From an uncultured Clostridia bacterium (GTDB lineage Bacteria; Bacillota; Clostridia; Oscillospirales; Oscillospiraceae), in NCBI GenBank assembly GCA_945948185.1, contig CAMFAL010000006.1, forward strand, positions 1 to 52,930: a DNA stretch of 52,930 nucleotides, read 5' to 3'. The notes beneath the pieces are model-generated. The model saw only the letters and a list, made by a program, of their open reading frames with translations. It did not search any database and had not been told where the DNA came from. A program made the translations under genes and the position numbers. Shown here one piece after another: positions 23,771-27,293 of this stretch; within the stretch, counting starts at the first letter, position 1; each line of letters begins with the position of its first letter.

Positions 23771-24637
23771 TTGGAACCGATATTACAGATCAAAAACCTG
23801 ACCCATACCTACGGCATCGGCACGCCCTTTCAGCGCAGCGCGGTGGAGGATATGAGCTTTGACGTGCATGAGGGAGAATTTCTCGGCATCATCGGCCACA
23901 CCGGTTCCGGGAAATCCACCCTGATCCAGCACCTGAACGGCCTATTGAAGCCCACGGCAGGCCAGGTCCTGCTGGCGGGGAAGGATATTTGGGCGGAGCC
24001 GAAAAAGATCCGGGACGTGCGGTTCCGGGTAGGCCTAGTGTTCCAGTATCCGGAGTACCAGCTCTTTGAGGAAACTGTCTACAAGGACATTGCCTTCGGT
24101 CCTGCCAACATGGGCAAGACCGGGGATGAACTGGACCGCTGTGTCCGGGAAGCCGCCCGCCTGGTTGGCATCCGGGACGACCAGCTGGACAAGTCCCCCT
24201 TTGAACTCTCCGGCGGCCAGAAGCGCCGGGTGGCCTTGGCGGGCGTCATGGCTATGGAGCCGGACGTGCTGATCCTGGACGAGCCCACCGCGGGCCTGGA
24301 CCCGGCGGGCCGGGAGAATCTCATGGCCAACATCCGGGACTACCACCGCAACAAGCACAAGACCATCATTCTGGTCAGTCACAGCATGGATGAGATTGCT
24401 CAAAACGTGGACCGAATCCTGGTCCTGAAGGGTGCTCATATTTTGATGAGCGGCACGCCGGCGGAGGTCTTTGCCAGAGGCGGCGAGCTGATGGCGGCGG
24501 GACTGGATGTACCCCAGGTGACCCGGGTGGCCATAGCGCTGAAACAGCGGGGCCTGGACATCGACCCGGCGGTCTACACCGTGGAGGCGCTGGAAGCGCA
24601 GCTCCTGGCGCTGCGGAAAGGCGGTGCCGTATGCTGA
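23771..24637 (+). CDS. ecfA2: Energy-coupling factor transporter ATPase 2
   Basis: Second ATPase of the ECF module, 288 aa. Walker A GHTGSGKSTLIQHLNGLLKP, Q-loop GLVFQYPEYQLFEETVYKDIAFGP (the YPEYQLFEETV form is diagnostic of EcfA2), signature LSGGQKRRVALAG, Walker B LILDEPTAGLDP. The start is TTG 23771 downstream of AAAGGGAAGAG. It overlaps ecfT by 7 nt. Confidence 0.95.
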   Translation: MEPILQIKNLTHTYGIGTPFQRSAVEDMSFDVHEGEFLGIIGHTGSGKSTLIQHLNGLLKPTAGQVLLAGKDIWAEPKKIRDVRFRVGLVFQYPEYQLFEETVYKDIAFGPANMGKTGDELDRCVREAARLVGIRDDQLDKSPFELSGGQKRRVALAGVMAMEPDVLILDEPTAGLDPAGRENLMANIRDYHRNKHKTIILVSHSMDEIAQNVDRILVLKGAHILMSGTPAEVFARGGELMAAGLDVPQVTRVAIALKQRGLDIDPAVYTVEALEAQLLALRKGGAVC

Positions 24638-25437
24638 AGGATATTACCCTGGGTCAGTATTTTCCCGGAACGACAGTGGCCCATAAGCTGGACCCCCGTA
24701 CCAAAATTCTGCTGGTGGTGCTGTATATTGTGGCGCTGTTCTGCGCTAAGGGCGTGGTGGGCTACGCACTGATGGCACTGTGTCTGGCCGCCTGTGTCCG
24801 GATCTCCAAGGTGGGCATCAAGCAGTTGATGCGGGGACTGAAGCCGGTACTGTTTATCATCATCTTCACCGGCTTATTAAACCTGTTTTTCACCCCTGGA
24901 GACACCTATCTGCTGGAGTGGGGCTTCCTGCGTATCTCCATGGAGGGCCTGCGGAACGCTGTCTTTATGGTGCTGCGGGTGATGCTGCTTATCATGGGAA
25001 CCTTCCTGATGACCTACACCACCAGCCCCATCAGCCTCACCGACGGCCTGGAGCGGCTGCTGAACGGCCTGAAGCGGTTCCATGTGCCGGTCCATGAGCT
25101 GGCCATGATGATGTCCATCGCCCTGCGGTTCATCCCCACCCTGATCGAGGAGACGGACAAGATCATGTCCGCCCAGAAGGCCAGGGGCGCGGACTTTGAG
25201 AGCGGAAATATCATCCAGAAAGCCAAGGCTCTGATCCCCATTCTGGTGCCGCTGTTTATCAGTGCCTTCCGCCGGGCCGACGAACTGGCCACGGCCATGG
25301 AGTGCCGCTGCTACCACGGCGGCGAGGGCCGGACCAAGCTGCATGTGCTGAAATATCAGCGGCGGGACTATATTGCTCTGACCATCGGAATTCTGGTGGT
25401 AGCGGTGATTCTGACACTGCGGCATTTCGGGCTGTAA
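24631..25437 (+). CDS. ecfT: Energy-coupling factor transporter transmembrane protein
   Basis: Membrane scaffold (268 aa, five to six hydrophobic helices) that couples EcfA1/EcfA2 to exchangeable S components. The N terminus LGQYFPGTTVAHKLDPRTKILL and the coupling helix QKARGADFES with the A-R-G motif are typical. C-terminal ECRCYHGGEGRTK is the second Arg-containing coupling segment. ATG 24631 overlaps ecfA2. The gap to the next gene is 29 nt. Confidence 0.95.
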   Translation: MLKDITLGQYFPGTTVAHKLDPRTKILLVVLYIVALFCAKGVVGYALMALCLAACVRISKVGIKQLMRGLKPVLFIIIFTGLLNLFFTPGDTYLLEWGFLRISMEGLRNAVFMVLRVMLLIMGTFLMTYTTSPISLTDGLERLLNGLKRFHVPVHELAMMMSIALRFIPTLIEETDKIMSAQKARGADFESGNIIQKAKALIPILVPLFISAFRRADELATAMECRCYHGGEGRTKLHVLKYQRRDYIALTIGILVVAVILTLRHFGL

Positions 25438-25466: not shown

Positions 25467-26351
25467 ATGGGATCCCTGAAAAAGAATGGGCTGCCGCTCC
25501 TGTCCTTGGCTCTGTGCGCCGTTCTCACCGTGGCGCTGGTCCGACAGAGCGCGGAAGTCGGCAGTCTGCGGGCGGAGTTGGCGGAGGAGCACCGGACGGA
25601 GGAGGATTTGGCGGAGCGCCTGGACGAGACGGATACCGCTTTGAAATCGCTGCAAGCCAGTCAGAACCAACCGCCGATTTCTGTCTCTTTCGCGAATCCA
25701 TCTGTGAATACCAGGGACCGGATGCTGACCGTGGATATCATTGCGGAACTCCCGGATGCGGATGAATATAGCTCGACGATCGGCTTCTGCCGGGTGGGAG
25801 AGTCATACCGTATGGCTTGGAAAATAGAGTATCTCTATCGGAACGGAGTCGGGATATACATGCAGACGGTGACATTTCCTCTGGACCTGGAGATGGGACT
25901 GGAGCTGCGGCTGGAGGATGACGCCGTGCTGTTCAGCAGTGATTCCATTGCGGAACTGCTGCCGGTGCGGCTTAACTATGGCGGTACTTCCTGGCACTTC
26001 GACAGCCAGGGGCAGAGGCTTTACCAGTGCGACTGGGGTGCCGATCTGATGGACCCGGCGGGGAACGAGGTGCAGGCGCTGGACGGCGAATTCCGGGTTT
26101 ACCGGAATGGAACTCTGGTATTCACCGGGCGGCAGATGCCTGATAACTGCAACGTGGAAGCGGACGGGGAGATTTTGGATAGTGTCGGCCTGGACTGTTC
26201 TCCGGGGGACCGTATGCGGCTGTGCTATGCCTGTACGGATGCGTTTGGCCTGCGGTATGAGTTTCCAATTTGGGAACAGCTTGCCATGCGGTGGGATGAC
26301 ATGGAGGAAGTGCCGCTGTCCCGCCGCCCCACCGTCACCTGGCCGGAATAA
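25467..26351 (+). CDS. Hypothetical secreted or membrane-anchored protein
   Basis: 294 aa, family not recognised. Residues 9-25 are a hydrophobic helix (signal or anchor), 26-67 a charged predicted coiled coil rich in Glu/Leu (SLRAELAEEHRTEEDLAERL), and the rest looks like a beta-rich extracellular domain with many acidic residues and few Lys. ATG 25467 follows AAGGGAGG. Base composition is lower in GC than its neighbours. It lies between ecfT and the duplicated truA start, whose ribosome site TAAGGAG overlaps this gene's stop codon. Confidence 0.7.
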   Translation: MGSLKKNGLPLLSLALCAVLTVALVRQSAEVGSLRAELAEEHRTEEDLAERLDETDTALKSLQASQNQPPISVSFANPSVNTRDRMLTVDIIAELPDADEYSSTIGFCRVGESYRMAWKIEYLYRNGVGIYMQTVTFPLDLEMGLELRLEDDAVLFSSDSIAELLPVRLNYGGTSWHFDSQGQRLYQCDWGADLMDPAGNEVQALDGEFRVYRNGTLVFTGRQMPDNCNVEADGEILDSVGLDCSPGDRMRLCYACTDAFGLRYEFPIWEQLAMRWDDMEEVPLSRRPTVTWPE

Positions 26352-26366
26352 GGAGTTTGACCGACT

Positions 26367-26435
26367 ATGCGTAACATTGCATTAAAATTGATGTACAACG
26401 GCACCGCCTACCACGGGTGGCAGGTCGCAGCGTAA
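26367..26435 (+). pseudogene. Truncated duplicate of the truA 5' end (22 codons, then stop)
   Basis: ATG 26367 opens a frame identical in protein sequence to the first 20 residues of TruA (MRNIALKLMYNGTAYHGWQV), then reads Ala-Ala-stop. It has its own TAAGGAG site and sits where truA would be expected, 15 nt after the preceding gene. Bases 26385-26425 match 26556-26596 in intact truA perfectly (41 bp), while codons 2-6 differ from the intact copy at six bases, all synonymous. It is not a functional enzyme; it may still be translated as a 22-residue peptide. Confidence 0.9.
26385..26425 (+). repeat. 41-bp direct repeat, left copy (truA codons 7-20)
   Basis: Perfectly identical to 26556-26596. 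Identity stops abruptly on both sides: upstream at synonymous differences, downstream at the twin-hairpin insert (GTC against GTG). This looks like a recombination core or a short tandem duplication with an insert. Confidence 0.9.
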
Positions 26436-26519
26436 AGAAAATATGCCAGTGGCATATTTTTAGCGTAGACTCCGCCGGCTATGCTGGCGGAGGGGAACTA
26501 AAGTAGAAGAAAGATAATC
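26426..26519. repeat. Twin-hairpin insert between truA copies
   Basis: Non-coding insert with two neat hairpins: AAAATATGCC-AGT-GGCATATTTT (26438-26460, 10 bp, followed by a T) and CTCCGCCGGC-TAT-GCTGGCGGAG (26470-26492, 10 bp with one G:U). The motif GCGTA flanks the first hairpin on both sides. The sequence ends before the GTGGGAGG ribosome site of intact truA. It resembles a palindromic repeat unit (REP- or MITE-like). I find no second copy in this window, and the family is not identified. The first hairpin could weakly terminate transcripts from the ECF operon. Confidence 0.65.
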
Positions 26520-26537
26520 GAACCGTGGGAGGCGGAC

Positions 26538-27293
26538 ATGAGGAATATAGCACTGAAATTGATGTACAACGGCACCGCCTACCACGGGTGGCAGGTGCAA
26601 AAGAACGCCGTTACCGTCTGCGAGACGCTGCAGAAGGCCCTGGAAAAGATTACCGGGGCGCCGGTGCACCTCACCGGCTGCGGCCGCACCGACGCCGGCG
26701 TCCATGCGGAGCACTACATCGCCAACTTCCGCACTGAGAGCCGCATCCCCGTGGACCGGCTGCCCTTTGCCGTCAATACCCACACTCCCGAGGACATTAT
26801 GGTGAAGGAGGCCCTGGAGGTGGCGGAGGACTTCAATGCCATCGGCTCCTGCATCAAGAAGGAATATACTTACCGCATTTACAACTCCCGCTTCAAAAAT
26901 CCCTTCTATGTGGACCGGGCCTATTTCTATCCCAAGAAGCTGGACGAGGAGTTTTTGAACCGGGCGGCCCACATGTTTGTGGGCACTCATGACTTCAAGG
27001 CCGTCCGCTCCGTGGGAACGGAGACGAAATCCACGGTCCGCACCATCTACTGGTGCGATGTGACGCGGAACGGAGACCTGCTGGAGCTGAAGGTCTGCGC
27101 CAATGGCTTTTTGTATAACATGGTACGGGCCATCACTGGCACGGTCCTCTATGCGGCGGAGGGAAAATTCGCCCCGGAGGATATCCCTGCCATTCTGGAG
27201 AGCGGAGACCGCCGCCTGGCGGGCCCTACCGTGCCTCCCGGAGGACTGTACCTGACGAGACTTTGGTATGAGGATGAACGACTCAATGGCTGA
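26538..27293 (+). CDS. truA: tRNA pseudouridine(38-40) synthase
   Basis: Converts uridines 38, 39 and 40 in the tRNA anticodon arm to pseudouridine. The 251-aa protein has YNGTAYHGWQVQ at the start, the catalytic-Asp motif GCGRTDAGVHAEHYIANF, and the C-terminal VCANGFLYNMVRAITGTVL and YEDERLNG region. ATG 26538 follows GTGGGAGGCGGAC, a site different from that of the truncated copy upstream. The gene is intact; the disturbance is limited to the duplicated first 20 codons and the hairpin insert before it. Its stop overlaps the next start by 8 nt (ATGGCTGA). Confidence 0.96.
   Translation: MRNIALKLMYNGTAYHGWQVQKNAVTVCETLQKALEKITGAPVHLTGCGRTDAGVHAEHYIANFRTESRIPVDRLPFAVNTHTPEDIMVKEALEVAEDFNAIGSCIKKEYTYRIYNSRFKNPFYVDRAYFYPKKLDEEFLNRAAHMFVGTHDFKAVRSVGTETKSTVRTIYWCDVTRNGDLLELKVCANGFLYNMVRAITGTVLYAAEGKFAPEDIPAILESGDRRLAGPTVPPGGLYLTRLWYEDERLNG
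26556..26596 (+). repeat. 41-bp direct repeat, right copy (within intact truA)
   Basis: Second copy of the repeat at 26385-26425, covering codons 7-20 of the functional truA gene, which encode the conserved YNGTAYHGWQ segment. Confidence 0.9.

Follow-up and report, generated by a model that had tools for sequence, protein, structure and literature searches.

The start of truA is present twice in an uncultured member of the Oscillospiraceae, and this double start is most likely one case of a recurrent replacement of gene ends by a small folded repeat. The window analyzed here, a stretch of 52,930 nt, is contig C6 of a host assembly of 1.63 Mb in 90 contigs. At truA itself, which is a single copy in one assembly that is 82% complete, gene-end replacement by a small structured repeat is probably the correct reading. 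The repeat, designated Family 1, also lies between an outer and an active gene end at the 5' end of rnhA and at the 3' ends of lepA, infB, and tpiA in other genomes.

The gene order near the double start consists of two ABC ATPases, a CbiQ-family gene, an open reading frame designated orfX, the short truA start, a spacer, and the intact truA. The CbiQ-family gene (24631..25437, + strand; Pfam CbiQ, E 3.8e-49), which we take to be ecfT, is a chromosomal neighbor that lies directly 5' of truA in some relatives, with a gap of 17-53 bp in eight and 196 bp in one, and is separated from truA by ~850-1320 bp in others. The 294-aa orfX (25467..26351, + strand), located between ecfT and truA, is a native neighbor that varies among relatives. 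It gave tblastn matches in 13 of 29 relative loci and matched no PHROG or Pfam family; across the genus it is highly variable (24-67% identity) and is present or absent between ecfT and truA.

The outer truA start, hereafter S, occupies 26367..26435 on the + strand and encodes 22 codons followed by a TAA at 26433-26435. After only 102 nt (26436-26537), the inner start, S* (26538..26596, + strand), opens an intact truA of 251 aa (26538..27293, + strand; NCBIfam TruA, E 2.7e-55) and is continuous with the gene body. An alignment of 26367-26425 with 26538-26596 spans 59 nt at 90% identity. The six differences, at positions 4, 6, 9, 12, 16, and 18, recode codons 2-4 and 6 of S* and are all synonymous. 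No difference occurs from position 19 to position 59 (41 nt), and immediately past this block the copies diverge. The first-pass annotation, made on the sequence alone, had described a truA start that is present twice with purely synonymous divergence, the outer copy ending in a stop and the inner one opening the intact gene, and both parts of that description are borne out. Two truA-start matches were found only in this genome in a DNA search of 86 genus genomes, 70 of which gave a match, and a second copy of the start was likewise found only here when this genome and 59 relatives were searched at the protein level; the double start is thus not there by chance. Between 26200 and 26700 we found no promoter-like site and no terminator-like site on the + strand, the sole terminator-like site being on the - strand inside truA, so the idea that the spacer serves as a promoter or terminator is unsupported.

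The two starts carry different leaders. The 30 nt that precede S (26337..26366, + strand) are identical at 30/30 positions to the truA leader of genome G090 (locus L042) and resemble those of other species with orfX before truA. The leader of S* (26508..26537, + strand), which contains a GGGAGG at 26527-26532, is closest to those of G029 and G025, species in which truA directly follows ecfT. When 48 distinct relative leaders were scored, 19 favored S by at least 10 score units; the S* leader was favored by 5-10 units in three (G007, G025, and G029) and by at most 2.5 elsewhere. Over the first 24 nt, S matches G028 at 21/24 positions and S* matches G025 at 20/24, and the truA gene body shows no such separation of lineages (88% identity to G028 and 87% to G029). 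We read S as the putative displaced native start and S* as a putative replacement that came from another lineage. The evidence for this foreign origin consists of 30 leader nucleotides and 24 coding nucleotides. The earlier proposal of an insert in the truA 5' end that displaced the native start and brought a replacement start and ribosome site is largely right: S keeps the native leader, and the active start has a foreign-type leader with its own GGGAGG. A stretch of this leader (26523-26535, CCGTGGGAGGCGG) has a single mismatch in its complementarity to truA codons at 26575-26587 around CCGCCTACCACGG, and such a pairing could mask the ribosome site. The same stretch is present in the G025 leader and mostly present in that of G029.

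The first-pass annotation had also regarded silent changes packed next to perfect identity as odd. The pattern is real but carries less weight than it seems to. Compared with nine relatives that we selected, S* is 67-83% identical over nt 1-24 and 86-97% identical over nt 25-59. Since the adjoining block is nearly invariant between species, the silent changes in codons 2-6 are the ordinary pattern of alleles from two species.

The spacer between the two starts is one copy of Family 1, a folded repeat of ~85 nt with two hairpins. The homology of S to truA stops at 26425, 0 nt from the repeat core, which was identified by pattern match at 26426-26465 (+ strand) and overlaps hairpin 1 (26430-26466). 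Hairpin 2 was identified by folding at 26470..26492 (+ strand) as a 10-bp stem with a G-T wobble, and a similar hairpin follows the core in many Family 1 copies, as judged by eye. In the genus search with the duplicated region, the spacer was also matched elsewhere in six other genomes, and in one of these, G008, the rnhA start is present twice around a Family 1 repeat. The core pattern occurs in 10 copies in 8 of the 86 genus genomes and in at least 119 stretches of the species genome collection. Among the 80 matches listed from this collection, the hosts are Oscillospiraceae, Ruminococcaceae, Clostridia, and Clostridiales assemblies, including Flavonifractor plautii. These 80 loci and ten loci of the genus search provided a first set of 91 distinct copies; a second set of 38 copies, from 39 further loci, was not used to build the model.

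Hairpin 1 shows compensation in both sets. Of 85 distinct copies, 84, 85, and 85 have Watson-Crick bases at the three hairpin 1 pairs that the pattern leaves free, where column composition predicts 55, 48, and 38, and each of these pairs is Watson-Crick in 36/36 copies of the second set. The strand that begins at S (+) folds more stably than its complement by a mean of -4.1 kcal/mol, with 76 of the 85 copies biased in this direction by more than 0.3 kcal/mol and 7 in the opposite one (p 1.7e-13), and the bias was repeated at 35 to 1 in 36 new copies (p 5e-7); both p values assume independent copies, an assumption that related copies violate. No significant strand difference in folding was seen in four sets of control segments taken from the flanks. 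Because the strand starting at S folds better, Family 1 may act as a folded single strand, either RNA or ssDNA. Rfam gave no match in the window at 26300-26700 (E<=5) or in loci L263-L270 (E<=0.5), and in L067-L073 it gave one T-box only, ~3 kb from the repeat in L071. Several copies have features of their own. In L102, L103, L111, L133, and L156, hairpin 2 carries an extra branched insertion of ~60 nt. In L084, two copies ~620 bp apart face each other and have inverted repeats at their flanks, an arrangement reminiscent of the termini of a small composite. In L095, L114, and L169, TGTTTCACG precedes the copy and recurs past the repeat, visibly extending as TGTTTCACGTGAA in L095 and L114; it resembles a ParB site, parS.

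The association of Family 1 with duplicated gene ends was evaluated by comparing the 60 nt left of each core with the sequence to its right. An S-S* score of at least 13 was obtained for 16 of the 91 copies, as compared with a 99th percentile of 12.5 for mismatched left-right pairs, a null that is raised, as is that of Family 2 below, because it includes pairs of the same gene from other genomes. In all 16 scoring copies (16/16) the left copy stops 0-1 nt before the core. The second set behaved similarly, with 8/38 copies passing and 7 of these 8 stopping 0-1 nt before the core; its pairs include an infB-like end, repeated lepA-like ends recognized by eye, and one non-coding duplication. The recognized targets are truA 5' in the window, rnhA 5' (L074), tpiA 3' (L077 and L144), lepA 3' (L094, L106, L132, and L142, and L159 by eye), and infB 3' (L109, with L092 just below threshold), and one protein of each was confirmed by family match. 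Other scoring pairs are non-coding tandem duplications (L186) or unrecognized sequence. In the coding cases, 3' replacement ends are ~40-50 nt from the core, and the two 5' replacement ends are 72-96 nt from it. At L106, the distance to the scored copy is 233 nt, and a nearer copy is visible by eye. Three lepA 3' ends appear to follow one another at this locus: the first precedes the repeat, the second, a truncated copy of ~95 nt, lies past it, and the last is the true end of the gene.

The search suggested in the first-pass annotation, for further genes whose duplicated and recoded end surrounds a similar insert, was positive in other genomes. Its 41-bp recombination core did not hold up, as the identity next to the repeat spans 14 nt for rnhA and ~6-21 nt for the remaining Family 1 gene ends, and the truA block falls mostly within a stretch that is intrinsically conserved between species. 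Across 11 scored pairs (ten of Family 1 and one of Family 2), which were chosen because a coding gene was recognized and in which the 3' segments are only 18-30 nt, 39 of 40 differing codons are synonymous, the sole exception being an R to K in rnhA. The twelfth pair, L159, was skipped since no frame was found, and its lepA pair is visible. Both copies of each pair therefore look like gene ends that were recently under selection, and, judged on these sequences, simple duplication and decay would not give such a silent-only pattern.

These recurrences also bear on two simpler accounts. The truA locus could record a one-off recombination with a fragment of another species' truA, or a tandem duplication of the start, with the repeat being incidental. 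Taken by itself, the truA S-S* pattern equals ordinary species-level divergence, which speaks for this account; the presence of the same repeat in the same relative position at rnhA, lepA, infB, and tpiA is left unexplained by it, and we consider it quite unlikely. A chimeric assembly of the truA loci of two strains is conceivable, given that the assembly of the window has 90 contigs and is 82% complete. The repeat would not arise in this way, and the same arrangement is found in independent assemblies that include Flavonifractor plautii ATCC 29863 (L132). We judge this explanation to be highly improbable.

Most Family 1 copies have no S-S* pair at threshold (75/91, and 30/38 in the second set), which indicates that gene-end replacement is one mode of this repeat and not the only one. 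Complementary flanks, at a score of at least 9 that 0.8% of the null reaches, border 24 of 83 copies, showing that a gene-end copy does not always accompany the repeat; the window copy (L078) is among the 24 with a score of 10.5. Among neighboring proteins, two clusters reach 10 loci, namely ABC ATPases and translational GTPases. A recurrent neighbor as the protein partner of Family 1 was considered and rejected, as the GTPases beside the core are the targets lepA and infB; a further GTPase lies 88 nt left of the core in L145.

A search with rnhA revealed seven genomes in which the 3' end of the gene is copied behind it, and a further case at the rnhA 5' end in G004. As judged by eye, these loci hold a different repeat, designated Family 2, which measures ~130-140 nt from its first hairpin to S and which appears as tandem units in two genomes. 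Family 2 is present in at least 48 of the 86 genus genomes, and its counts per genome are lower bounds, with at most nine first-look candidates scored in each. With a strict pattern, run on loci that had already been collected, 14 of 17 copies showed a scoring duplication, four of the 14 pairs being rnhA and two being alignments of element on element. Of 40 further copies, hand-picked from among the matches listed, 26 scored above the 99% value of the null (30) and 14 were kept as negatives; these copies are not independent, as known tandem pairs are included and several share a gene across genomes, and L386 was kept among them despite its resemblance to an element-on-element alignment. The targets, read by eye and then confirmed as protein families, include rnhA, tuf, prfC, aspS, ackA, a response regulator, and an ABC ATPase. 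In Family 2, folding favors the strand ending at S in 12/12 elements. A segment of 8-15 nt directly before the first Family 2 hairpin is the complement of target sequence spanning the junction in 20 of 38 copies versus 20 of 1356 mismatched pairs, as counted on copies with S/S* and with L294 and the second L291 copy omitted as element-on-element. As seen by eye, L264 and L265 contain tandem units of ~225 bp behind rnhA, each consisting of a gene end and a Family 2 repeat, and in L265 the outermost rnhA end is the most diverged. Seven copies (L351, L356, L358, L366, L367, L374, and L384) have no gene-end pair and lie beside a terminator-like hairpin by eye; ARAGORN placed a tRNA gene near six of these seven, with none near L374.

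The complementary segment raises an alternative in which the repeats are guide RNAs of a distant or uncharacterized helper protein, with placement directed by S in Family 1 and by the target-complementary segment in Family 2. In line with such guides, folding is strand-specific, S is joined to the strand that folds, and the complementary segment is enriched in Family 2. For Family 1, the family found at truA, no such segment was found at that position, with 1/19 copies reaching the 99% value of the null. At the truA junction S equals S* for 41 nt, and a nuclease that reads S would therefore also cut S*. We regard RNA-guided insertion as doubtful on this balance. The same identity contradicts homing with a protected replacement end at truA and disfavors a nuclease of that kind there.

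A candidate mover was sought among four enzyme families. TnpB (PF07282), Y1 (PF01797), IS110 (PF02371), and reverse transcriptase (PF00078) gave no match in this genome (G000, 82% complete) or in G061 and G107, which are 96% and 97% complete and have at least 9 and at least 7 Family 2 matches. All four were rejected as the mover based on their absence from these two copy-rich genomes, a result that also speaks against RNA-guided insertion. By contrast, G100, G013, and G108, with at least 13, 11, and 10 Family 2 matches, have three or four of the tested families, a comparison made by eye with no statistic. In open-licence PMC papers we found no description of these repeats, and we draw no link between them and TIGR-Tas (PMC12045711).

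The locus could instead represent a conventional integrative element, in a minimal form or as a remnant, with an integrase and gene-end attachment sites in the manner of tRNA-gene islands. The geometry is the same, consisting of a gene body with an element-supplied end, the element, and the displaced old end, and several Family 2 copies lie near tRNA genes. The 102 nt between the truA starts are too short for an integrase, and the other coding targets are similarly compact. IMG/VR viral contigs gave no match to nearly the same Family 1 core pattern. A phage collection gave four matches, of which MT836830.1, whose ORFs were read by eye, appears to be a contig of bacterial origin that has truA and the same transporter genes; the other three were compared at the truA start only. 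An integrative origin of this kind is in our estimation unlikely, and the first-pass annotation's related suggestion of a remnant of a larger element finds no counterpart in the data: no larger lost element was seen, the gaps from repeat to gene end are short, and the upstream part of the window is chromosomal. A prophage at truA, which was first suggested by the alike ends of relatives' upstream ORFs, was ruled out by the upstream annotation (ABC ATPase, ABC ATPase, CbiQ, and orfX).

Our current model for gene-end replacement is that the repeat travels with the replacement gene end. On entry into a gene terminus, the recipient's own end would be moved outward to become a relic, and the gene would stay whole. 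Spread from strain to strain would probably rely on the homology of the relic to the recipient's own end, a route already proposed for the yeast WHO elements. Homologous recombination could copy a donor S-repeat-S* locus, with S as one arm and the gene body as the other. Such copying would cover spread between strains and not the first entry into a new gene; the enzyme or host process that first places the repeat would have to act in trans. A stronger version, to which we give little credence, is that Oscillospiraceae harbor protein-free, RNA-guided mobile elements whose folded RNAs pair with gene termini, insert, and replace the end, driven by a host or other protein, and that truA records one such event. 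If the repeats are a real mobile system, then the mover should be findable, the ends of translation genes would be mosaics of species, and the target-complementary segment of Family 2 would be a direct, testable handle.

Several known systems share features with these repeats. Integrative islands and prophages use gene ends or tRNA 3' ends as attB. As in those systems, an element appears to supply the missing gene end and direct repeats flank the insert; unlike them, the insert contains no integrase or cargo, and repeat plus gene end amount to ~110-230 bp. For retroelements such as group II introns and retrons, G000, G061, and G107 have no reverse transcriptase match. REP palindromes and enterobacterial RU-type sequences (PMC12306157, PMC2759123) are likewise short, palindromic, intergenic repeats in many copies, whereas the repeats here are tied to replaced gene ends and are without a Y1 transposase match in G000, G061, and G107. 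The IS110 bridge RNA (PMC11208160) and the omega RNA of TnpB/IscB resemble them in placing a structured RNA beside a target-matching stretch; in contrast to IS110 and TnpB, no recombinase or nuclease gene is present in the insert, and neither family was matched in the same three genomes.

The closest parallel is provided by the WHO elements of Torulaspora and Lachancea, at which the 3' end of FBA1 is replaced by a diverged copy (PMC7282813). The authors of that paper propose that the donor supplies the end that makes FBA1 complete and that the end formerly used by the recipient is left as a fragment. The repeats described here share the outward displacement of the old end, its replacement by a diverged end in a gene that stays functional, and the buildup of tandem fragments by repeated events. 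There are also differences. WHO elements encode an endonuclease and mainly target FBA1, whereas these repeats carry no protein gene, fold, and target several genes at both 5' and 3' ends, and the truA replacement end does not differ next to the junction, where 41 nt are identical. Gene-end replacement by a diverged copy was described earlier for an endonuclease element of yeast (PMC7282813); the case described here is bacterial, with an insert that has no protein gene and that is found at several conserved genes and at both gene ends.
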